36,811 nt of DNA from positions 1-36,811 of the IMG/VR virus record IMGVR_UViG_3300042368_000919. The stretch is one strand, 5' to 3'. The notes beneath the pieces are model-generated. The model saw only the letters and a program-made list of their open reading frames with translations, had not been told where the DNA came from and ran no database searches. Below are positions 11,473-21,983 of the stretch, piece by piece. The translations under genes and the position numbers were made by a program. This DNA is from a virus. Each line of letters begins with the position of its first letter. Position 1 is the stretch's first letter.

Positions 11473-12325
11473 TATTGCCTCTGTTCTTTTCAATGGCCTT
11501 AAGCATTGCTTCTGCGTACCAACGCTCGTTAGGAGAAAGTCTGTTCAACAGCTTACCGTCTGACGTTGCTTGCAGTGCGATAAGCGCAGATGACTCAACC
11601 TCGCGCCATGTTCTTCCAGTAATTGAAGGAACCTCAGCAATATTGTTTGTTTTGCGAAGCGCGGCTGCAGCATCGTAGTTTTCTTCGTAAATATGTAACG
11701 ACCCGACATGATGCGAATATGAGCCAGGCTCGATGCCAAGAATAGACGCAATGGCGATTTGTACGCGAGTGAACTGAAAGAAATCGTATGCCGCGCCGAG
11801 CCACACGTCATTTGATCGCATGTACACGCTCATGTTTAGGCGGTTCCTGCGAACACGAAACTGATGGAGGATCGTGCAAGGATAGTCACGCTTTTTCTCA
11901 AGCATGTCGCGCTCGGGGTTCCAAATAGTTACAACTGCTTGACGCGTGTCTGGATCTTTCTTGAGCCGATCAACCATGACATCGTACTGACCTTTTGTTC
12001 TTGTTCCATACGAACCGTGGAACATTCCATCGTCTTCTGTATAGTTCGCAAATTGTGGGCCAATGTCAATTACGAGTTTTGGAAAGCTAGTTCCAGAAAG
12101 AAGTTGACATGCTTCAACTGCGCCAATACCTGGAACAGTGCCACGGTTTACACTAAGTGGAAGCGCGTCTACAGCATTGTGGATATGGATTGTCGCGTCC
12201 TCAATTTCAAGTGTGTTTAGTCCACGCGGAGCAGCAGGCTCACCATGCTTAAGTACGTGATTTACAAGATCAACATAGCCATTTACACCGTCTTCAATAT
12301 CAATGTGTTTTACCGAAGAATCCAT
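11459..12325 (-). CDS. Thymidylate synthase homologue, probably dCMP (hydroxy)methylase type
   Basis: The 288-residue protein aligns with ThyA over its catalytic half. Catalytic Cys150 sits in 'YPCTILHQF', the phosphate-binding Arg170 and Asp173 in 'MRSNDVWLG', and His211 and Tyr213 in 'LHIYEEN'. Spacing from the cysteine is the same as in E. coli ThyA (Cys146, Arg166, Asp169, His207, Tyr209). At the position of E. coli Asn177, which selects dUMP, this protein has Asp181 ('GAAYDFFQF'). The same Asn to Asp change marks T4 dCMP hydroxymethylase and switches ThyA mutants toward dCMP. I therefore infer action on dCMP, making 5-methyl- or 5-hydroxymethyl-dCMP. A good ribosome site (AAGGAAG) precedes the ATG. 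Ordinary thymidylate synthesis remains possible. Confidence 0.8.
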   Translation of the reverse strand: MDSSVKHIDIEDGVNGYVDLVNHVLKHGEPAAPRGLNTLEIEDATIHIHNAVDALPLSVNRGTVPGIGAVEACQLLSGTSFPKLVIDIGPQFANYTEDDGMFHGSYGTRTKGQYDVMVDRLKKDPDTRQAVVTIWNPERDMLEKKRDYPCTILHQFRVRRNRLNMSVYMRSNDVWLGAAYDFFQFTRVQIAIASILGIEPGSYSHHVGSLHIYEENYDAAAALRKTNNIAEVPSITGRTWREVESSALIALQATSDGKLLNRLSPNERWYAEAMLKAIEKNRGNNVKR

Positions 12326-13308
12326 TTATCTTCCTTATCTGCTCCAATGTGAATAAATCTTTCAATCGCGTTTCCGTACTCTACACGGTCGTGATGGTGA
12401 AACCTGCGAACGTACTGCGGGTGCGGAACTACGATCACGTCTTCGTCTGGAATTCCAAACATCTTTAAACGAACAGCGGCCTTTCGACCAAGCGCAATAA
12501 CTGTTGGGCTACCGAGAGCTTCCCAGAGATCCACGCACCTATCGCCAAACACATCATCTGAGTTTATGATTCCAATTTCTCGCCAAAGTGTCTTTGGCAG
12601 TGCTGACATTAGATAGTCACCAGAGTTCTTGTCAACAGGCATGAACGGAAGGATCGTCACGTCCTTGTGGTTGCGATTATCGCCAACAAGAAGCGCTGTC
12701 GGCGCAGGTGCGCCAATGTATTCTGGAAACGGAACAAGATGCTTTACACTTTTGGCGACTTCTTCTGCTGTTTCAATGATACGAGCTGCCAGTCTTGGAA
12801 TATCGTCAAAGCTGTCTGGTTTTGGCGTAATCATTGCCTCAAGAGTATGGACTGAAAGAGCTGCTTTTTCATAAAGCTTTAGAATTACTTCAAGATCTTC
12901 TTCTGACACAAAGTCATCGCCACGGCCGCGCAGACGAGACTGAATTACATCAAGCGGTTGGTAAAGCCAAAACTGCGCCATTCCACGTGACGCCATGAAC
13001 ATCTCAACCCATCGCCACCCAGGAATACCTAAAAGGCCATAGTCATCTTCTATACACGTGTGAGGGCGCTTTAGAGGGGCGTATGTGACCTCGCCCCAGT
13101 GCCATCGGTCAGCAACAACGTGCTCTTCTGTAAAGTTGCGGCGCTCAATATCAATTGCGTATTCGTGAAGTGCCCACCTGCGAGTTTCCTCTGCTGGTCG
13201 CCCTTTGTGTGGAGTCTCCACTGGACCGCGCTCTTTGAGTTGGCGGACAACTTCAGCGCAGAGAGAAGTTTTTCCTGATGCGTCGGTTCCTTCAATTGCT
13301 ATAAACAT
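12310..13308 (-). CDS. Thymidylate-kinase-like / uracil-DNA-glycosylase-like fusion
   Basis: The ATG at 13308 is preferred because AGGA stands just upstream; the frame opens further to a TTG at 13335. The product is 332 residues. Residues 1-190 form a TMP-kinase-like P-loop domain with Walker A 'EGTDASGKTSL' (6-16) and a 'DRWHWGE' motif (67-73). Residues about 200-320 resemble the UDG superfamily: 'LLVGDNRN', 'FMPVDKNSGDYLMSAL', 'INSDD', 'PTVIALGRKAAVRL' and the closing 'VVPHPQYVRRF'. Motif I is degenerate, so glycosylase activity is uncertain. One chain would combine nucleotide phosphorylation with a base-recognition domain. The overlap with the thymidylate-synthase homologue suggests a shared pathway. 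Confidence 0.72.
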   Translation of the reverse strand: MFIAIEGTDASGKTSLCAEVVRQLKERGPVETPHKGRPAEETRRWALHEYAIDIERRNFTEEHVVADRWHWGEVTYAPLKRPHTCIEDDYGLLGIPGWRWVEMFMASRGMAQFWLYQPLDVIQSRLRGRGDDFVSEEDLEVILKLYEKAALSVHTLEAMITPKPDSFDDIPRLAARIIETAEEVAKSVKHLVPFPEYIGAPAPTALLVGDNRNHKDVTILPFMPVDKNSGDYLMSALPKTLWREIGIINSDDVFGDRCVDLWEALGSPTVIALGRKAAVRLKMFGIPDEDVIVVPHPQYVRRFHHHDRVEYGNAIERFIHIGADKEDKWILR

Positions 13309-13358
13309 TTGCGTCCTTTGTCGTTTGATGATCAACTATATCAATAAGTATTGCTCAA

Positions 13359-13907: not shown

Positions 13908-14849
13908 CTAACAAACCACGTTCTGTAGACTTTCTTTGTAGTTGAATCCTAGGTTTTCAATGTACTTGTCATACATCTCGTGGTCTTTTGCTCCGTAATA
14001 GCCAAACTCGTTTCCCATGAGTATTTCTTTGAAGAACAGCCTATGAGAATGCGATAAAGGCGCCAATGCACCGAACTTCTTAGATTCCGTAACAAAGTCA
14101 ATTTCAACTGATTCTAGGTACTCGGGAGTTTTATGAAGTGTGTAGGAAACGTTGTTATGTATTGAGAAGATACGAAATCCGCGGGTCCAAGCTCGCATCG
14201 GGTACACATATTCTTCCCCAAAGAATATCAGTCTTGGGTCAGGCATAACTTCAAAAAAGTAATCGTAGGTTGAGAATACTTCCCCAGCGGCGATAAGAAA
14301 ATGTTCAACATAGTTCTTACTCGGATCTGGGTCTACTGCTGGGCTGTTGATGATGTATGAACTATCAAAACGAGTAAGCAACTCTCGCTGAATATCTACT
14401 CCATGGCGATAGTCGTACCTTTTTGTTTGAAATGTCTTTTCGCCGTTTTTGCCTTTTTCGTAAGTGCTTGGCCTATGTGAAATTATGATCTTATTGTGCT
14501 CGGTTTCTTTTTCTATTTTTTCGTAGTTCTCTTTAAGCAGGGTGTCCCAGTTTTTTACGAAAACAGTATGAGCATCTACTCGTAAAACATAGTATTGATC
14601 TTTCCATAGATACAGGGCTTCAAGCATGGCGATACCCAAACCTCGTGGAGACGGCGACGTAATGTTTGAAACTGCGACATTTTCAAACATTGAGAAGTCT
14701 TCAAAACTTCCATATATTTTTTGATTACAAACGCCAATAAAAACATTAGAAGGCGAACTCGCATTCTCAAACGCACTTATCACAGTGTCCATGAGATCAG
14801 GCTCATGGAACGACGGAAGCATTATAAATACGTCGTCATTTCGCTTCAT
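13908..14849 (-). CDS. GT60-like glycosyltransferase (Skp1 hydroxyproline GlcNAc-transferase family)
   Basis: The 313-residue protein matches the pattern of the GlcNAc-transferase family of Dictyostelium Skp1 Gnt1 (CAZy GT60, Pfam GlcNAc). The N-terminus 'VFIMLPSFHEPDLMDTV' and 'NVFIGVCNQ' form the opening Rossmann unit. 'SPRGLGIAMLEALYLW' leads into 'YYVLRVDAHTVFVKNWD', where Asp92-Ala-His94 is the metal-binding DxH. 'DPRLIFFGEEYVYPMRAWTRGF' (204-225) is the family's acceptor-side signature with GEE at 211-213. Known members add GlcNAc to 4-hydroxyproline in cytoplasmic proteins. A prolyl-hydroxylase-like gene lies two genes upstream and a Pro-Thr-rich tail protein further upstream, so the virion tail is a plausible acceptor. 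There is no signal peptide or membrane segment. The acceptor is inferred. Confidence 0.75.
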   Translation of the reverse strand: MKRNDDVFIMLPSFHEPDLMDTVISAFENASSPSNVFIGVCNQKIYGSFEDFSMFENVAVSNITSPSPRGLGIAMLEALYLWKDQYYVLRVDAHTVFVKNWDTLLKENYEKIEKETEHNKIIISHRPSTYEKGKNGEKTFQTKRYDYRHGVDIQRELLTRFDSSYIINSPAVDPDPSKNYVEHFLIAAGEVFSTYDYFFEVMPDPRLIFFGEEYVYPMRAWTRGFRIFSIHNNVSYTLHKTPEYLESVEIDFVTESKKFGALAPLSHSHRLFFKEILMGNEFGYYGAKDHEMYDKYIENLGFNYKESLQNVVC

Positions 14850-14890
14850 ATGAGTACCGCTCTACGACTGCTAATCAGCAACAAGTCAAG

Positions 14891-15052
14891 TTACTTTTGC
14901 GCTGTCAGCTGATCTTGAAGCGATTTAATGACAGATTTCAATATTGCGTTGTCCCTGGCGTAGTTTGCAACCTGCAAACTAAGCTCATTTATTACAACAC
15001 CGTAGTCAATTTCAGAGACTGCCACAACCTGTGGCGTGATTTTTTCATTCAT
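14891..15052 (-). CDS. Small coiled-coil hypothetical protein (53 aa)
   Basis: The ATG at 15052, 2 bases after the oxygenase stop, is preferred over a TTG-type start inside that gene. The product is 53 residues; 'NYARDNAILKSVIKSLQDQL' near the C-terminus has heptad-spaced hydrophobics typical of a short coiled coil. It lies between the oxygenase and the GT60-like gene and may be a small partner of either. No function can be assigned. Confidence 0.55.
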   Translation of the reverse strand: MNEKITPQVVAVSEIDYGVVINELSLQVANYARDNAILKSVIKSLQDQLTAQK

Positions 15053-15054
15053 TG

Positions 15055-16410
15055 TTACACTCCATTTGTCGTTCCTCCTGCGTAGTTGTACCATCTAACA
15101 GCAGCGTAGCGTATTCCGCTAGCAACTGGTTTGACACTGTGCATATTTTCAAAGCCTGCGCCAAACACTACAATTTTGCCTGCGCCTCTTGAAACTTTTA
15201 TTTTCTTGTGCTTAAACACTAGATCTCCGCCAGTGTAGCTATCATTAAGAAGTATTGAAACAGCCACTACTCTTGGAAACTCTATGCAGTCGTCAACATG
15301 ATCATGAAAAGCGCCGTCTCGCTCGTACCTTGTGAGCTGCCAATTATGTGATTGAAGCTCTGGTATGCTATACATTTTTCTAAAGTCTTCAATAATTGGA
15401 GCAATACCAACTTCAAGGCTTTCGTACAGTCTGCGGATTGGATCGTGCACATGACACGAAAGCTGCGTGCTATTTATGAACTTGACATAGCATGTTCTCG
15501 CTAGGTAGTTCACGGCTGGTTCTCTTTCATTGTCCAGTACCTGGGCCGGCGCCCAAAGCTTAAAGCACGCGTTCTGCGTAAGTCCTTTTAGAACTTGAGC
15601 TGACTCCCGCGAGATTTGATATTCAACTATTCCAGGCGCCAGCACTTTCTTATCAACGACAGACATATCAACTAGCTCGATTTCATCGTCAATGTAGTTT
15701 CCAAGAATGTTGTCGTACAAAGACAAGACTCCAGCGTAGTTGTGGCACGCGCATACTGGCTGATTTACTGGCGCATCTGGCATTGGAATGTAGCGATTTC
15801 TATTGAAAAATCTAATGTCTCCATCGCTCCCATATCGCCCGATGCCGTGTTCTTTTGATTTCTTTTGTATCCAGTGATCAGGCCTTGTAAAGTGCATGAA
15901 CACTACAGTAGTGTGCACGTCGGTTCGTCTAGACGGAAACGGGGGTCTAGCATGAATATGCTGTTGTCCAGCAAAGATGATTCCTTCATTTTCATTTTGC
16001 TCATATTGGTTTCCTTCAACAAGCAAATTCCATTTTGCGGTATTTTCAATTGTAAGATCAATAGTCGTCTGTGTTCCGTTTTGATCAGTGTGCTCCCAAA
16101 GATGTGGAATACAGCCATCAACTGATTGGTACCTAACCGCGTAAAAGTAGGCTTTTAGAAGCGTGTCATCATTAAACAGTTCTCTTGCTTTAGCCAGCGC
16201 GTAGTCTTCAATGTCTTTTGAAAAACCTACAGGAGACTCCCAGCGCCCGATCATGGTGTGGTATTTAAGCGGGCCGTCAGGTCCCATTTTTAAGTTGTCT
16301 ACTGTTTGTTTTATACGAGAAAACATCTCGTCTGGAAAGAATGACTTGATGACTACTGGTTCGCTAATTAGCGGATCTGGTAGTTCAAATTCAATCTTTC
16401 CATTTCTCAT
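15055..16410 (-). CDS. Double-domain 2OG-Fe(II) oxygenase, prolyl-4-hydroxylase-like
   Basis: I chose the ATG at 16410, 1 base after the upstream stop, giving 451 residues; an upstream TTG at 16425 is less likely. The C-terminal domain has the full P4H signature: Tyr, Gly and Phe spaced before His371-x-Asp373 ('GAFHDHVDD'), then His424 and Arg434 in 'MHSVKPVASGIRYAAVRW'. These bind Fe(II) and 2-oxoglutarate. The N-terminal half seems to be a second double-stranded beta-helix: 'LWEHTDQNG' (His107-x-Asp109), 'AGQQHIHARPPF' (His151 or 153) and an arginine near 161. A two-domain build of this kind is uncommon. Family members hydroxylate prolines or other residues. Its place near a proline-rich tail gene and a GT60-like gene suggests virion-protein modification. 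Confidence 0.8.
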   Translation of the reverse strand: MRNGKIEFELPDPLISEPVVIKSFFPDEMFSRIKQTVDNLKMGPDGPLKYHTMIGRWESPVGFSKDIEDYALAKARELFNDDTLLKAYFYAVRYQSVDGCIPHLWEHTDQNGTQTTIDLTIENTAKWNLLVEGNQYEQNENEGIIFAGQQHIHARPPFPSRRTDVHTTVVFMHFTRPDHWIQKKSKEHGIGRYGSDGDIRFFNRNRYIPMPDAPVNQPVCACHNYAGVLSLYDNILGNYIDDEIELVDMSVVDKKVLAPGIVEYQISRESAQVLKGLTQNACFKLWAPAQVLDNEREPAVNYLARTCYVKFINSTQLSCHVHDPIRRLYESLEVGIAPIIEDFRKMYSIPELQSHNWQLTRYERDGAFHDHVDDCIEFPRVVAVSILLNDSYTGGDLVFKHKKIKVSRGAGKIVVFGAGFENMHSVKPVASGIRYAAVRWYNYAGGTTNGV

Positions 16411-16411
16411 A

Positions 16412-16648
16412 TCACCACTTACCAAGAGGGCATTTTGCGTTTAGCAACCGTGTCTTCATGTTCATAAAGCACCCGCATTCGAGACACTGCTTTGTTAAAT
16501 GTAGAAATCGCTCACAGCCGTTGCAGACCGAAAGCCTTGAACTTGACAGCTCTTCATTTGCTCTTGGAGCATGTGGATTTATTAGATCAAGTGGAGTTAC
16601 TCCACCGTTCTTTTCCTTAAACTTCTCCCAGCGAGACTTATCACTCAT
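16412..16648 (-). CDS. Small zinc-ribbon-like protein (78 aa)
   Basis: The C-terminal 40 residues carry a four-cysteine pattern, 'CNGCERF' then 'CLECGCFMNMKTRL' and a final 'CPLGKW', which looks like a small zinc-ribbon. Proteins with this 'CGCFM..K..L....CPLGKW' ending are common in aquatic tailed phages, usually beside tail or hydroxylase genes. The N-terminal half is polar and unstructured. It overlaps the upstream 146-residue gene by 8 bases and precedes the oxygenase by 1 base, so it is in the same transcript. Its role is unknown. Confidence 0.72.
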   Translation of the reverse strand: MSDKSRWEKFKEKNGGVTPLDLINPHAPRANEELSSSRLSVCNGCERFLHLTKQCLECGCFMNMKTRLLNAKCPLGKW

Positions 16649-17081
16649 CTGTTCCTACTACAACATTTCCCATTCCATCAATACGACGCTCAACGCCGCC
16701 GACAGTCTGCATTATGTAGAAACCTTTTTCATCATGCTTCCAGCCAGCCGCAACTTGAAGGCTTTTATCACGCGTTATTCTAATTGCAGTCGGCTCACTC
16801 AGCAGAACAGAAGTTAGAAGCTCGTCAAGGATCATGTCAGTTGAAGTGTCGCCAACCGTGGCTGTAATCACTTCAACTTGCTCTCCATTGATCTCTTCCA
16901 TTCGCGCCGTGTACGCCGGGTTTGCTAAGAAGATGTTGTCTCCGATTGGCGGTGAAAAAGCTTCGGCAGCTACAACTTCTCCGTTGATCACAAAAGCAAC
17001 AGGAGTTGCTGGTCTGTCAGTTGTAGTTGAGTCTCCATCGCGCTCTTGTAAGTAAAAAATGTCTGTTGCTGTAAGTATCAT
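16641..17081 (-). CDS. Hypothetical protein after the tail-tip gene (146 aa)
   Basis: I do not recognise a family. The sequence is beta-rich and acidic, with 'VAFVINGEVVAAEAFSPPIGD' and 'EVITATVGDTSTDMILDELLTSVLLSEPTAI' suggesting a small mixed alpha/beta fold. The C-terminus 'GWKHDEKGFYIMQTVGG' is aromatic-rich. There is no signal peptide, membrane segment or cysteine. The gene follows the tail-tip gene by 48 bases with an AGG ribosome site, so it could be a minor tail component, a tail-assembly factor or an accessory to the downstream enzymes. Confidence 0.6.
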   Translation of the reverse strand: MILTATDIFYLQERDGDSTTTDRPATPVAFVINGEVVAAEAFSPPIGDNIFLANPAYTARMEEINGEQVEVITATVGDTSTDMILDELLTSVLLSEPTAIRITRDKSLQVAAGWKHDEKGFYIMQTVGGVERRIDGMGNVVVGTDE

Positions 17082-17129
17082 GAGTATACCTTATCATTTT
17101 AGATTAGTGAAATGTTGACCAAAGCACGA

Positions 17130-18758
17130 CTAGCACACACCACCAGATGCGTTGCTTGCACCGCACTGTCCAGGGAAGCTACATCCAGCGAATCCAATGT
17201 CACCTGGGTTACACGTTCTGCCTGATGGTGGCGGTGTTACTGGTGGAGTTACTGGTGGAGTTACTGGTGGAGTTACTGGTGGAACTACTGGTGGAACTAC
17301 TGGTGGAACTACTGGTGGAACTACTGGTGGTGTAACTGGTCCTGCAGGCGAAGTACATGTGCCGCCTGAAGCGGCTGGATCAACGCACTGGCCAGGTGCC
17401 GAGCAACCGAAGAATCCAACGTCGCCTGGGTTGCAGAACTTATTTGAAGGAACAACTGGTGCTGTAACTGGAGCGGTAACTGGAGCAGTAACTGGAGCGG
17501 TAACTGGAGCAGTAACTGGAGCAGTCACAGGAGGTGATGCTGGTGAAGTGCACGTGCCGCCTGAAGCGGCTGGATCAACGCAGTCACCAGGTGCCGAGCA
17601 ACCGAAGAATCCAACGTCGCCTGGGTTGCAGAACTTGAGCGTCGGAGCAACTGGTGCTGTAACTGGTGCTGTAACTGGAGCGGTAACTGGAGCGGTAACT
17701 GGAGGAGTAGGCGTGCATGTGCCGCCTGAAGCAGTTGTTGAGACGCAGTCACCAGGCGCGTAGCACCCGTGGAAGCCGATGTCTCCTGGGTTACAGAATT
17801 TGTAGACTACAGCAACAGGAGATACAGGAGCAACAGGTGACACAGGGGCAACACCACAACTCTGAATGCAGTACGAGTCTGTAGTACCGTTGCTGTAGAG
17901 AATATTGCAATAGAGATTTGATCCGTCGTAGTTAAGTGAGTACGTGTTCGTGTCGTTTTGCGCATCATAGCGTATTCCAGTTGGAAGAAGCTCTGTCTGA
18001 TTGTTTGCTTCGTTATACGAGACAACTCCATCGTAGGTAAATGCGGTGACGTTTCCTGGCCAGTTGCCGCCTCCTCCTGGCAGCGGGCCAGAAGGACCAT
18101 TGACGAGCATTCCTGCGATTGCGCCTGTCCAGCCAGCGTCCCCGAGGTTGCCAATGTACATGTTTCCTAGGAATGTTCCACCAGTAAACAACGTGTCGCC
18201 GACAATTGTCCAACCAGCAATTGAACTACCTTCACCGCCAAATCCTTGACCAATTTGAATGTCAATACCTGTCAAAGTTCCTACGGTAATGTTTCCAGCG
18301 TCAAGGTTTGACACTGTAATAACACTTGCGTCAATCGTTCCTGCTGTAATCTTATTTGCGCTTACAGACGCAATGGCGTTGTCGCCAAGCGCGTTGGCCT
18401 GCCACACTGTACCTGTCCAGCGATAAATCTTATTTCCGTTGTCTGTTTCAAACCAAATGTCGCCTACAGCGGTCGCTGTCGGCTCATCGGCCTGGTGGAA
18501 CGCTTTATTTTTGCCGTCTGCAGTCGTAATTGCGTAGGCAATGTTAGAACTTACTGTATTGCTAAGATTGTTTTCTTGTACAGCATTATTTGCCAATTCG
18601 TAGTTTGTTACCGCCTGCCTAACGATTGCCGTTGTTGGAACAGAGCGAACTTGCAATTTCGTAGGGACAGCACGCTTTTGAACAGTGCGCAGCCTTGAGT
18701 CCATATGCGTAATCATTCGGCCAACGCTTCGAAGGCTTCTACGACGAATGCTAGCCAC
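17130..18758 (-). CDS. Tail-tip protein with Pro-Val-Thr linkers and four cysteine-rich repeats
   Basis: This 542-residue protein starts with GTG at 18758, overlapping the previous stop. Residues 45-170 are typical of siphovirus minor tail proteins: 'ADEPTATAVGDIWFETDNGN' and then 'ANKITAGTIDASVITVSNLD'. Residues 170-300 form a beta-rich part with Gly/Pro. The C-terminal 220 residues contain four near-identical 27-residue knobs (322-348, 377-403, 442-468, 516-542), each with four cysteines spaced C-x9-C-x5-C-x9-C. Linkers of repeated PVTA, PVTP and PVVP separate them. The knobs probably fold around disulfides or metal and are displayed on stalks for host binding. The protein ends on the last cysteine. 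The linkers are the best candidate substrates for the hydroxylase and GT60-like enzymes encoded downstream. Confidence 0.8.
   Translation of the reverse strand: MASIRRRSLRSVGRMITHMDSRLRTVQKRAVPTKLQVRSVPTTAIVRQAVTNYELANNAVQENNLSNTVSSNIAYAITTADGKNKAFHQADEPTATAVGDIWFETDNGNKIYRWTGTVWQANALGDNAIASVSANKITAGTIDASVITVSNLDAGNITVGTLTGIDIQIGQGFGGEGSSIAGWTIVGDTLFTGGTFLGNMYIGNLGDAGWTGAIAGMLVNGPSGPLPGGGGNWPGNVTAFTYDGVVSYNEANNQTELLPTGIRYDAQNDTNTYSLNYDGSNLYCNILYSNGTTDSYCIQSCGVAPVSPVAPVSPVAVVYKFCNPGDIGFHGCYAPGDCVSTTASGGTCTPTPPVTAPVTAPVTAPVTAPVAPTLKFCNPGDVGFFGCSAPGDCVDPAASGGTCTSPASPPVTAPVTAPVTAPVTAPVTAPVTAPVVPSNKFCNPGDVGFFGCSAPGQCVDPAASGGTCTSPAGPVTPPVVPPVVPPVVPPVVPPVTPPVTPPVTPPVTPPPSGRTCNPGDIGFAGCSFPGQCGASNASGGVC
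17229..17340 (-). repeat. 12-bp tandem repeats encoding linker 3
   Basis: Units of GGTGGAGTTACT and GGTGGAACTACT (plus-strand reading) repeat about nine times and encode the PVTP/PVVP linker before the last cysteine knob. Two unit variants occur in separate blocks, suggesting expansion by slippage or unequal exchange. Confidence 0.85.
17458..17532 (-). repeat. 12-bp tandem repeats encoding linker 2
   Basis: Units of the type GGAGCGGTAACT / GGAGCAGTAACT (plus-strand reading) repeat about six times and encode PVTA repeats between the second and third cysteine knobs. Confidence 0.85.
17651..17704 (-). repeat. 12-bp tandem repeats encoding linker 1
   Basis: Units GGTGCTGTAACT and GGAGCGGTAACT (plus-strand reading) repeat about four times, encoding PVTA repeats between the first and second cysteine knobs. 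This is the shortest of the three linkers. Confidence 0.85.
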
Positions 18759-20757
18759 GTTTATCTACTTCGTACTCTGAGATCAAGTTGAGGTCAACTT
18801 TTTCTGGAAACGTTGGAACATCTGGCACAGAAACAGTAAATGAGTCAATCTTACGGACAATGACAGTGTCGCGCGGTTCAAGATCACTCGCTAGACGTGC
18901 GCGAAAAAACTCGTCGTTAACATTCAATGCGCACCAATCGCCTGGATCATACTCGCCTACTTTTGGAGAAAGAGATCCGTTTACACTAACTTTAATGTCA
19001 GCAATTGGTGGTCTAAACTCATCTAGGTACCGCTTGGCGTATTGATATATGGTTGCCTCACTGGCCGCATCAACAAACCTTACGTTGTCAGATAGCGTAG
19101 GTGTTTGCTGGTCAAGCGCGTCGTCAGCGTCGAGTAGCGGCCAACCTGCTTCTAAAAGATCATGCGCAACTGCTGCTGCGTACGGCTGACTTACGTCTTG
19201 TCCCAAGTCTCCAGTGTTGCCAACAACAAAAAATCTAGTTGCTGCGTTTTCAGCAGACTCGTCTACACTAATGTCAATGATGCTTCCCGGGTAATCAAAC
19301 ACGAGTTGATCGGCGCCGAACCTGCTAATCGGCGAGACCTCACCCGGAGCAGGAGGGTCTGGAAAGTTTATTGAAATCAAGACAAGTGTTCTTGTAAATG
19401 AGTCTGTGGCAGCATCATAGGCGCAGTCAATACGGTACTCAAAGCCGTCAATTGTGTCTGAGTACTTATCGAGTTCTTCACCAACTGAAGCAAGCTCATA
19501 TCCGCGGTACGTTCTATTTTGAACATTACTTCCGCTGTATGCTGCAGTTGAGTATCCTATTCCAATATCAGCGTTTGCCGGATACGGGCCGTACGTGTTT
19601 GCGTAAACATACGGTGTCTTTGTCGCAGTGCCAGAGCTTGCCTGCGGAAGTATGTCCGTGACAGCGAACGAAGTAAATGTAAATGATGTTGACGATGGCA
19701 CGGTGACAACTGTATGAAGACCGTCAAACACAAGAATTGTTGAGTTCGCATCGTCAACTCCAGACACTTCAACAGTGTCTCCGACAGAAAACCCGTGTGA
19801 AGTTGATGTAGTTATCGTCGCAACAGACGCTATTAGTTGCTTGTTTGAAATTGACACAACCGTTGGCGTGGCAGCAGCAAGTGCCTGATTTGCTGAAACA
19901 AGGTCAAAAGTAAATGTAGATAGGTTTGGAGTACTTGTCACTTCATGATCTCCGTTGTACGGAGCGACACTATTTACAATCTGCACTAGTTGACCTGGAA
20001 GCAGAGTATGGTCATGCTGCGCAACAATTGTTGCGACATTTGATGTTAGTTGCGTTGTAGATATTTCAATTGCAGTTGAAAGCCCAGGCTCAATTTCATC
20101 ATTTGGAAAATCTATGTTTGTGAAGTCAATTGCCATCGTGTCGAGTAGCTGACGAATATAGTCGTAGGTGTCAACACGAACGTAGACAGTTGCATTCAAA
20201 TATGTGCCGTTTGGAAGAGTCGGTATAGACACGGTGCAGCTTGTTGCGCTTGGTGCCGTAAGAACTGTGTAGTACCCGTTGTACTGAAACTCGCCTACTT
20301 CATAGAAAATAATTTGGATTGTGGATCCGATTGGAAAATCAAATGAGTACAGGTCAAGAGAAACTGTAGTTGTTCCAGAAGCTTTAGTAATAGTTGCACC
20401 AAAACTGTGCGAGTACGTTTTCCATATATTTCTATGGTAGAAGTAGCTTGTAAACTCTGCTCCAGAAACCTGCAGCACACGAGATTCAACTGAATACGAG
20501 CGCGACCAAATAATTCCACCCCATACGCACTGCCCGTCGCGAACAACGTACAGCCCAGTTTTTCCAGGCATCGTGCTTGAGTACAAGTCAAACGACACGG
20601 TTTCTGGAATGTAAGGAATTGATCCAGAGAACTTTCCAGCGCCTTTGATTGCACGCTCGTATTGAACTGACTTAAACGGAATTTCCCCGATGACCTGATT
20701 AGACAGCAGGTCAGTTACGAAGTATCTGTATATCGGTGCGTATTCTGTTATTGACAT
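18751..20757 (-). CDS. Minor tail protein, Gp37/tail-associated type, with inserted beta modules
   Basis: The 668-residue protein resembles the siphovirus ReqiPepy6 Gp37-like family, the baseplate-hub protein of many actinobacteriophages. The N-terminus ('YRYFVTDLLSNQVIGEIPF', 'YERAIKGAGKFSGSIP') and the C-terminal part ('ADIKVSVNGSLSPKVGEYDPGDWCAL') are the hub halves. Between them lie three small beta modules: about 120-195, 236-305 and 307-380. The last shows the pattern 'ATITTSTSHGFSVGDTVEVSGV' followed by 'FDGLHTV' and 'TSFTFT'. Modules of this kind also occur in the Dit-like and major tail proteins. The gene follows the Dit-like gene, as expected for a tail hub, and has an AGGA ribosome site. 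Confidence 0.75.
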   Translation of the reverse strand: MSITEYAPIYRYFVTDLLSNQVIGEIPFKSVQYERAIKGAGKFSGSIPYIPETVSFDLYSSTMPGKTGLYVVRDGQCVWGGIIWSRSYSVESRVLQVSGAEFTSYFYHRNIWKTYSHSFGATITKASGTTTVSLDLYSFDFPIGSTIQIIFYEVGEFQYNGYYTVLTAPSATSCTVSIPTLPNGTYLNATVYVRVDTYDYIRQLLDTMAIDFTNIDFPNDEIEPGLSTAIEISTTQLTSNVATIVAQHDHTLLPGQLVQIVNSVAPYNGDHEVTSTPNLSTFTFDLVSANQALAAATPTVVSISNKQLIASVATITTSTSHGFSVGDTVEVSGVDDANSTILVFDGLHTVVTVPSSTSFTFTSFAVTDILPQASSGTATKTPYVYANTYGPYPANADIGIGYSTAAYSGSNVQNRTYRGYELASVGEELDKYSDTIDGFEYRIDCAYDAATDSFTRTLVLISINFPDPPAPGEVSPISRFGADQLVFDYPGSIIDISVDESAENAATRFFVVGNTGDLGQDVSQPYAAAVAHDLLEAGWPLLDADDALDQQTPTLSDNVRFVDAASEATIYQYAKRYLDEFRPPIADIKVSVNGSLSPKVGEYDPGDWCALNVNDEFFRARLASDLEPRDTVIVRKIDSFTVSVPDVPTFPEKVDLNLISEYEVDKRG

Positions 20758-20783: not shown

Positions 20784-21983
20784 CTATCCGATCCAGCCGG
20801 ACCTGTAGTACACGTCCATAGTTGCGGCGCCAGTTGCGTCGGTATCGTCTGTGAATGTTATCACGTTGTCTCCTGGCTCAAGTCTGATCCAGTCAGTAAG
20901 AACCTCAAGCATTGACCGTGTCCCAGTGGTTTGACTGTTAAAAACTACAGATCGGTCATAAGTGTCAATTTCAAGAATATCAGCGTCAATTGCAGCAGTT
21001 CCACTGGCAGCGCCGTACGCAACGTTTGCGGCAACTTTGTCATATGTAAATGTTGAAGTTGTTGGGACACTGGCAATTGTATGCGTTCCGTCAAACGTTG
21101 CATTTGAAATGCTAACAGTGACAAGATCTCCGGCAATGAATCCATGTGTCGTGCTTGTCGTAATCGTAGCAATATTGCTTGCAAGTTGGCTGTTTGAGAC
21201 ACTTTTTGAAGTGGCTGCTCGAAGTGGTTGAATAATTGTAATGAACTCTTCATTTGCCGCGTTGTAGATTGTCCCTGGTCCAGCAAGCGGGCCTTCAACG
21301 ACAAACACTGCTGAGACTCGTGTGTTTCCATCATTTGAAATTGTGCGCGTTCCAGTCTCACTTACCGCGCTATTAGCAGAAGGAATTGTAGTGATGTCGT
21401 AGCCATCTGGCTCGGCGGTATTCCACGAGTACTTAATTGGATCAGCGGCGCGTAGACCAATTGAAAAGTCAATGCGGCCTCGAGGACTTACTGATGTGAT
21501 GCTTGGGCGTCCACTAAGTCGTACCTTAGAGGCTTTGATTGGATTTTCATGAACCTTAAGCCAGCCATACGTGTACACCAGACTTGTTGATGTAATTAGT
21601 TCATTTCGAGCTGCAGGTGCAAGACTTGGATCTGGAGTAAGAATTGAGCCGTTCAATGTCAACTGGCGAGCAAGCCAACGACCGCGGACGTCATATGATC
21701 CGTCGCCGTAGCCGCGCTCAATATCTGGAACCATTGGATCTGGGTGAACCCACCAACCTTCAATATCTGTGCACACCCACACAACGTTGTTTTCATCAAT
21801 TCTGTTGAGGACAAGATCATTTATCTCGATGTCATTCTTTAACTTCATTCCCGTAAACCACGGGCGCGGTAAAGCAGTTAGCGACCTGTTTACAGCTACG
21901 TTTTCATTTGCCTGCGATGGGGCGTCAGTATATTCTCCTGCGCCGTATTCTCCAGCTCCGTAAGCTAATTCTGCTGCTGCCAT
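20784..21983 (-). CDS. Distal tail (Dit-like) minor tail protein with inserted beta module
   Basis: The 399-residue protein has the layout of a distal tail protein: an N-terminal ring domain with 'GWWVHPDPMVPDIERGYGDG' and 'DVRGRWLARQLTLNGSIL' (about residues 77-115), a middle 'PIKASKVRLSGRPSITSVSPRG' and 'IGLRAADPIKYSW', and a C-terminal jelly-roll ending 'RLEPGDNVITF...DVYYRSGWIG'. A beta module (258-331, 'ATITTSTTHGFIAGDLVTV') interrupts the C-terminal domain. Dit forms the ring joining the tail tube to the hub. The gene lies immediately upstream of the Gp37-like hub gene. Here a fibre-like gene lies between tape measure and Dit, a slight departure from the usual order. Confidence 0.72.
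   Translation of the reverse strand: MAAAELAYGAGEYGAGEYTDAPSQANENVAVNRSLTALPRPWFTGMKLKNDIEINDLVLNRIDENNVVWVCTDIEGWWVHPDPMVPDIERGYGDGSYDVRGRWLARQLTLNGSILTPDPSLAPAARNELITSTSLVYTYGWLKVHENPIKASKVRLSGRPSITSVSPRGRIDFSIGLRAADPIKYSWNTAEPDGYDITTIPSANSAVSETGTRTISNDGNTRVSAVFVVEGPLAGPGTIYNAANEEFITIIQPLRAATSKSVSNSQLASNIATITTSTTHGFIAGDLVTVSISNATFDGTHTIASVPTTSTFTYDKVAANVAYGAASGTAAIDADILEIDTYDRSVVFNSQTTGTRSMLEVLTDWIRLEPGDNVITFTDDTDATGAATMDVYYRSGWIG

Follow-up and report, generated by a model that had tools for sequence, protein, structure and literature searches.

Why should a bacteriophage carry a prolyl-hydroxylase-like enzyme and a GT60-family glycosyltransferase in the same gene cluster as a tail-tip protein with long Pro-Val-Thr (PVT) linkers? 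This question is raised by the IMG/VR virus record IMGVR_UViG_3300042368_000919, a 36.8 kb viral contig that was analysed over its whole length (36,811 nucleotides; hereafter, the window), and in which all the genes of this cassette lie on the minus strand. A first-pass annotation had proposed that the two enzymes act successively on the linkers, as in the Skp1 pathway, with proline being hydroxylated first and the resulting hydroxyproline being glycosylated afterwards. Our comparison across phages indicates that the enzyme make-up of such cassettes follows the stalk, the 2-oxoglutarate (2OG)-Fe(II) oxygenase accompanying Pro-rich linkers and GT60 accompanying Thr-rich ones, a pattern suggestive of chemical modification of fibre stalks by the phages themselves. 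We assign a probability of roughly 0.62 to the reading that this is a self-contained cassette modifying the phage's own receptor-binding fibre, in which the 2OG enzyme would act on linker prolines and GT60 on linker threonines, in parallel.

The fibre protein and the enzymes encoded beside it

The three genes on which the earlier proposal was built were all recovered on the minus strand. The proposed substrate is a tail-tip/fibre protein of 542 residues (17130..18758) with an N-terminal phage tail domain (phrog_1330, E = 6e-13). The composition of this protein changes along its length, since residues 301-542 contain 53 Pro and 17 Cys, as compared with 8 Pro and 2 Cys in residues 1-300. In the C-terminal part, four 4-Cys modules (region 17133..17795, minus strand; 17715-17795, 17550-17630, 17355-17435 and 17133-17213) with the pattern CNPGDxGFxGCxxPGxCxxxxASGGxC, which are probably disulfide-bonded, alternate with three long linkers. 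The repeat analysis located these, also on the minus strand, at 17643..17705 (Linker 1, PPVTAPVTAPVTAPVTAPVAP), 17448..17534 (Linker 2, PPVTAPVT...TAPVVP) and 17226..17339 (Linker 3, PVTPPVVPPVV...PPVTPPP). The repeats comprise 14 (A/P)PVT units as well as PPVV units, and two adjacent (A/P)PVT units were obtained in 0 of 5000 shuffles of the protein. A collagen-type fibre was considered for the window and rejected, given that the linkers are of the (A/P)PVT/PPVV type and the fibre has no Gly-X-Y array; a 203-residue open reading frame (ORF) on the plus strand (17152-17763) was likewise discarded as an artefact, since it runs antisense to the linkers and arises from their repetitive composition.

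The hydroxylase-like enzyme is a tandem-domain 2OG-Fe(II) oxygenase of 456 residues (15055..16425, minus strand), in which PF13640 matches residues 363-446 (E = 8e-11). The alignment of 14 homologues revealed that H376-x-D378 and H429 of the C-terminal domain are invariant and R439 nearly so; this domain thus possesses, within a double-stranded beta-helix, the iron triad and the 2OG-binding Arg of a prolyl-4-hydroxylase (P4H)-type oxygenase, and the intact His-x-Asp...His...Arg set noticed earlier was confirmed in it. In the N-terminal domain, H112-x-D114 and H158 are also invariant, but a conserved basic residue is missing some 10 positions past H158. An AlphaFold2 model (predicted local distance difference test, pLDDT, 79) matched Tpa1/OGFOD1, PBCV-1 vCPH, PHD2, and the Pseudomonas and Chlamydomonas P4H enzymes, and a phmmer search against PDB sequences returned only weak PKHD-type and prolyl 3-hydroxylase matches. 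Homology, fold and the co-occurrence described below lead us to infer that this enzyme hydroxylates peptidyl proline.

The glycosyltransferase (313 residues, 13908..14849, minus strand) scored 103.5 bits against PF11397 (cut-off 21, E = 2e-29), which confirms the GT60-like identity given to it previously. The alignment of 18 homologues showed the motifs D92-A-H94 and GEE (211-213); H94 of the metal motif is invariant, and D92 is replaced by Cys in L094/L245 (L numbers designate the loci compared in this work). The model of this enzyme (pLDDT 80) has a GT-A fold whose closest matches are polypeptide N-acetylgalactosamine (GalNAc)-transferases, the best being GalNAc-T2, and a phmmer search against PDB sequences gave nothing useful. 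Membership in GT60 is silent on the acceptor, because the family includes both the Skp1 hydroxyproline N-acetylglucosamine (GlcNAc)-transferase Gnt1 (PMC6939170) and mucin-type transferases (PMC8724618).

Two features were added to the gene set described before, namely the two-domain build of the oxygenase and a gene encoding a zinc-ribbon-like DUF6171 protein of 78 residues (16412..16648, minus strand; PF19668, E = 2.6e-6, 28.1 bits against a cut-off of 27), which overlaps both its neighbours.

Enzyme content and linker composition across phages

The co-occurrence of these genes was tested from four anchors: a linker DNA pattern, DUF6171, GT60 and the two-domain 2OG gene. Many contigs in these sets are fragments. 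A search for DNA encoding (A/P)PVT repeats, made with a degenerate pattern, matched at least 120 stretches, and PF13640 was found in 25 and GT60 in 4 of the 50 records tested. A PF13640 gene on the same strand and no more than 5 kb downstream accompanied 23 of the 31 PVT proteins with at least four Cys, in contrast with none of the 19 that have fewer. With near-copies counted, DUF6171 was present in 35 of these loci and a member of the 2OG family in 36. Neighbour clustering gave the cassette order fibre, small gene, DUF6171, one or more 2OG genes, and then optional genes (GT60, GT61 (PF04577), cupin-like or radical SAM).

The DUF6171-anchored set involves no selection on the linker and comprises 58 non-redundant loci with downstream room, in which the linker was read from the longest ORF with at least four Cys. 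A 2OG gene was found downstream of 30 of 32 Pro-rich linkers and of only 3 of 26 others (p = 7e-11; p-values are descriptive throughout), and these three loci still carry short Pro motifs (VTPAVTP, PPFFPPEF and FFPPYFPP). GT60 accompanied 10 of 14 poly-Thr linkers (12 or more Thr within 30 residues) as compared with 4 of 44 others (p = 1.4e-5), and most of the poly-Thr loci with GT60 were devoid of a 2OG gene. When the two-domain 2OG gene was used as the anchor, DUF6171 was present in all 32 non-redundant loci and a Pro-rich linker in each of the 28 that leave room upstream. Of these linkers, 27 reach 10 or more Pro in 30 residues and one has 8; the choice of linker was revised here, as a longer tail gene had first been taken in some loci. 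From the GT60 anchor, a Cys-rich ORF linked to DUF6171 was present at 45 loci, of which 40 had poly-Thr linkers and 10 had a 2OG gene; no 2OG gene was detected in the fetched flank of the other 35. Among 80 cellular GT60 loci, DUF6171 was nearby in none and a Thr-rich neighbour in one. Several anchors thus show that the hydroxylase-like gene does accompany Pro-rich fibre linkers in other phages, and GT60 was found to recur in the same cassette. Cassettes of this kind are widespread, in many uncultured relatives of the window phage and in non-relatives.

The linkers that accompany 2OG genes vary widely (PVT, PVV, PTPT, PPFF and PAPV), and proline is their sole common residue. This argues against the idea that the 2OG enzymes hydroxylate Val, Phe, Thr or residues of the Cys modules, with GT60 or GT61 glycosylating those positions, as do the best fold matches, which belong for the most part to protein prolyl hydroxylases. 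We consider such a chemistry quite improbable, even though related 2OG enzymes use other residues, the fold search also matches lysyl hydroxylases, and the four to six 2OG genes at PPFF loci exceed the need of a single proline modification. These tandem genes follow PPFFPPFF-type linkers at L258, L260, L262, L272, L273, L282, L283, L292 and L302, and perhaps serve different Pro/Phe positions or hydroxylations. Other enzymes were also observed in the cassettes. A radical SAM gene precedes GT60 in many poly-Thr cassettes, and some PPVV cassettes have radical SAM together with GT61 (L251, L285, L307, L315, L395, L397-L400, L402, L407 and L409); an additional peptide modification by these radical SAM enzymes is possible. 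Where a 2OG cassette has a PVT linker or a PPVV linker free of Thr, the glycosyltransferase slot may be filled by GT61 (L105, L135, L149, L158, L164, L166, L179, L190, L252 and L291), which is a better candidate than GT60 for a hydroxyproline glycosyltransferase.

A similar association was observed among 80 loci related to the window through the neighbouring tail gene. PVT-type tail tips occur in three lineages of this set and the 2OG gene in exactly those three; both are absent from the other 75 loci, some of which end at contig ends. GT60 is confined to the window lineage, the closest PVT relatives having the 2OG enzyme without it. The cultured Actinomycetia phage DSL-LC01, with a tail gene 58% identical to that of the window, has the same gene order (tape measure, two minor tail proteins, tail tip, thymidylate kinase, thymidylate synthase); its tail tip is Pro-poor (2.3% Pro, 2 Cys), and, like other relatives with ordinary tail tips, it has none of the three enzyme-cassette genes. 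Because of this shared synteny, the host of the window phage is probably an actinobacterium. The cassette behaves like a unit that is exchanged along with the fibre end.

The position after a fibre gene is a well-known hot spot for insertion. This, and the abundance of 2OG genes in cyanophages, would fit a different view, in which the 2OG enzyme and GT60 are auxiliary genes for host targets (EF-Tu, lipids or surface glycans) that happen to occupy a variable post-fibre slot; some P4H enzymes indeed have host substrates such as EF-Tu, according to PDB titles. We regard this as very improbable, because the presence of each enzyme tracks the linker composition of the neighbouring gene and the enzymes are absent from the same slot in related phages.

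The acceptor of the GT60 enzyme

In the Skp1-type sequence put forward by the first-pass annotation, the 2OG enzyme makes linker hydroxyproline and GT60 then adds GlcNAc to it. The presence of both enzymes and a Pro-rich substrate in one gene cluster speaks for this order of events, as does the inclusion of Gnt1 in GT60 (PMC6939170). As a general rule, the proposal is not supported: GT60 goes with Thr and in most cases has no 2OG gene beside it, as the 45 GT60-anchored loci show, and the co-occurrence of GT60 with a prolyl hydroxylase is true of the window and not of GT60-DUF6171 loci generally. Among Pro-rich loci with a 2OG gene, GT60 was found with 4 of 14 linkers that contain Thr and with none of the 19 that are Thr-free (p = 0.024), which argues for Thr rather than hydroxyproline as the acceptor, and the closest PVT relatives carry the 2OG enzyme alone. 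The mucin-like modification of Thr, which had been mentioned as an alternative, is thus better supported than sequential glycosylation of hydroxyproline. These counts do not decide the matter for the window itself, in which we consider the Skp1-type sequence less likely; as the acceptor of its GT60 we would rank Thr first and hydroxyproline second.

The phylogeny of GT60 qualifies this ranking. Searches were run by subclade, since an alignment of all GT60 types gave no usable pattern, and the long branches make placements on the tree provisional. Most enzymes from poly-Thr loci fall in one clade, outside of which the window enzyme groups with the GT60 of phage L151/L492. The contig of this phage is 151 kb long, with 99 bases common to its two ends, and the whole gene order of the window is repeated in it. 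Both of these GT60s stand beside a 2OG gene, as the Skp1-type sequence would have it. A scan with window-type GT60 returned mostly loci without DUF6171. The GT60s of Pro/Thr cassettes with a 2OG gene are scattered on the tree, and the supported branches force at least four separate gains, suggesting repeated recruitment. At L263 (1529-2450) and L325 (6213-7224), GT60 is split in two ORFs, probably owing to a frameshift, a sequencing error or pseudogene formation.

Several points weigh against parallel modification of linker Pro and Thr. The loci partly share ancestry, so that the p-values overstate independence, and the threshold of at least four Cys in the linker-anchored comparison was set after seeing the data. 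An earlier rule for choosing the linker ORF, that with most Cys, gave p = 6e-4 for Pro/2OG and 0.08 for Thr/GT60; it was changed afterwards, as it had picked out-of-frame ORFs. There are also exceptions: L264 and L310 have Pro-rich linkers without a 2OG gene, L325 has GT60 with a Thr-free Pro linker, and L300 has a poly-Thr linker without GT60. Finally, Thr specificity is extrapolated to the window GT60, because this enzyme falls outside the clade of the poly-Thr GT60s, and its own clade has several members in contexts that lack DUF6171.

If modification in parallel is nonetheless correct, the 2OG enzyme would hydroxylate the linker prolines in the bacterial cytoplasm late in infection, using oxygen, iron and 2-oxoglutarate, and hydroxylation would promote a rigid, extended stalk of the polyproline-II type. 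GT60 would glycosylate linker threonines with a nucleotide sugar as donor, as its co-occurrence with Thr-rich linkers suggests; by family precedent the sugar added may be alpha-GlcNAc, and the glycosylated linker would resemble a protected, mucin-like stalk. Once built into the tail tip, the modified stalk could serve as a stiff, protease-resistant spacer between the Cys modules. The two modifications would be kept or lost with the composition of the linker and not form obligatory successive steps, DUF6171 accompanying the Cys-rich fibre whatever the linker; the window phage would have both enzymes because its linker has both Pro and Thr.

DUF6171, the remaining genes and related systems

DUF6171 is the most constant partner in the cassette. 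Its Cys pattern (CxxC..CxECGCF..CPLGKW) has Cys residues that are invariant in 26 homologues, and it accompanies the Cys-rich fibre even where no 2OG gene or GT60 was found (for example, L267, L305 and L312). Because of this, its role more likely concerns the Cys modules or the assembly of the fibre than either modification, and our guess is an assembly, recruitment or cysteine/metal-handling factor. We found no paper on DUF6171 in the open-licence literature. Cultured cyanophages that carry DUF6171 beside fibre-type or 2OG genes, namely S-IOM18 (L328, HQ317383, 4666-6925), S-CBS2 (L573) and Sf-FS3 (L330), offer usable laboratory models. In Synechococcus phage S-IOM18, a Cys-rich protein and DUF6171 are separated by a small gene whose product has a thioredoxin-like CPQC motif. 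In the cultured Synechococcus phage S-SRM01 (L572, MW015081, 2327-5273), an annotated flavin-dependent halogenase, an adhesin tip protein and DUF6171 are consecutive, which suggests yet another fibre modification.

The other genes of the window complete this arrangement, on the same strand. A Dit-like gene (20784-21983, PF22768) is followed by a minor tail gene (18751-20757) and the fibre gene. A 146-residue gene of unassigned function (16641..17081) lies between the fibre and DUF6171; its homologues occupy the same slot (cluster c3, 13 loci), where other small genes stand elsewhere. A 67-residue ORF with no assigned role (14891..15094, weak phrog_3335) separates the oxygenase from GT60. The common strand and the overlapping ORFs make a single transcript plausible, and promoter and terminator scans of the window gave matches at chance level. 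A thymidylate-kinase-like gene (12310-13335) has a C-terminal stretch weakly similar to the uracil-DNA glycosylase superfamily (E = 0.14, below the cut-off).

Repetitive Pro-rich stalks like the phage linkers are characteristic of extensins and other hydroxyproline-rich glycoproteins. Plant and green-algal extensins, with the Chlamydomonas P4H, also share the P4H-fold enzyme; they involve other proteins and glycosyltransferases, and the likeness of the substrates need not reflect common ancestry. The Skp1 pathway of Dictyostelium and Toxoplasma (P4H/PhyA, then Gnt1) likewise unites a prolyl-hydroxylase-like 2OG enzyme and GT60 (PMC6939170). However, it modifies one proline of a cytosolic protein in an obligatory order, whereas the likely phage target is the repeats of a virion protein, and the phage GT60 follows Thr and occurs without a hydroxylase. 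The mucin-type GT60 alpha-GlcNAc transferases of Trypanosoma cruzi and the Dictyostelium Golgi (PMC8724618) resemble the phage enzyme in PF11397, Thr-rich acceptor regions and a GalNAc-transferase-like predicted fold, but the phage enzyme is encoded beside a tail fibre, in phages of bacteria that have no Golgi, and its acceptor and sugar are predictions. Among the best fold matches of the oxygenase, the PBCV-1 viral collagen prolyl hydroxylase vCPH (5c5t) is also virus-encoded, although from a eukaryotic algal virus, while the window enzyme is a tandem-domain protein in a phage tail cluster. The top matches, the tandem-domain prolyl hydroxylases Tpa1/OGFOD1, share the two 2OG-type domains; they target the ribosomal protein Rps23, and the overall TM-score of about 0.3 does not imply an equivalent domain arrangement. 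Phage glycosyltransferases have been proposed to act on virion proteins in cluster F1 mycobacteriophages, for which capsid glycosylation was suggested (PMC11256854); no hydroxylase or link to linker composition is reported for them in the literature searched. No description of such a fibre cassette was found in the open-licence literature, which by itself does not prove novelty.

A broader proposal, for which we see even odds, is a modular system of tailed phages in which a constant DUF6171 and a Cys-rich fibre are combined with interchangeable enzymes (2OG, GT60, GT61, radical SAM or cupin-like) chosen by the repeat chemistry of the stalk, the virion displaying hydroxyproline-rich or mucin-like stalks made in the bacterial cytoplasm. 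If this is true, phages would place on their receptor-binding fibres types of protein that are mostly associated with eukaryotes, and would match the modifying enzymes to the stalk sequence, as plants and animals treat hydroxyproline proteins and mucins. Phage genes annotated merely as '2OG-Fe(II) oxygenase', 'ferrochelatase' or 'auxiliary metabolic gene' would gain a substrate and DUF6171 a context. The cassettes would also be a source of prolyl hydroxylases and polypeptide O-glycosyltransferases of compact size, expected to function in bacteria, and the reasons for modifying a virion protein, such as stiffness, protease resistance, lectin binding or masking, would become directly testable.

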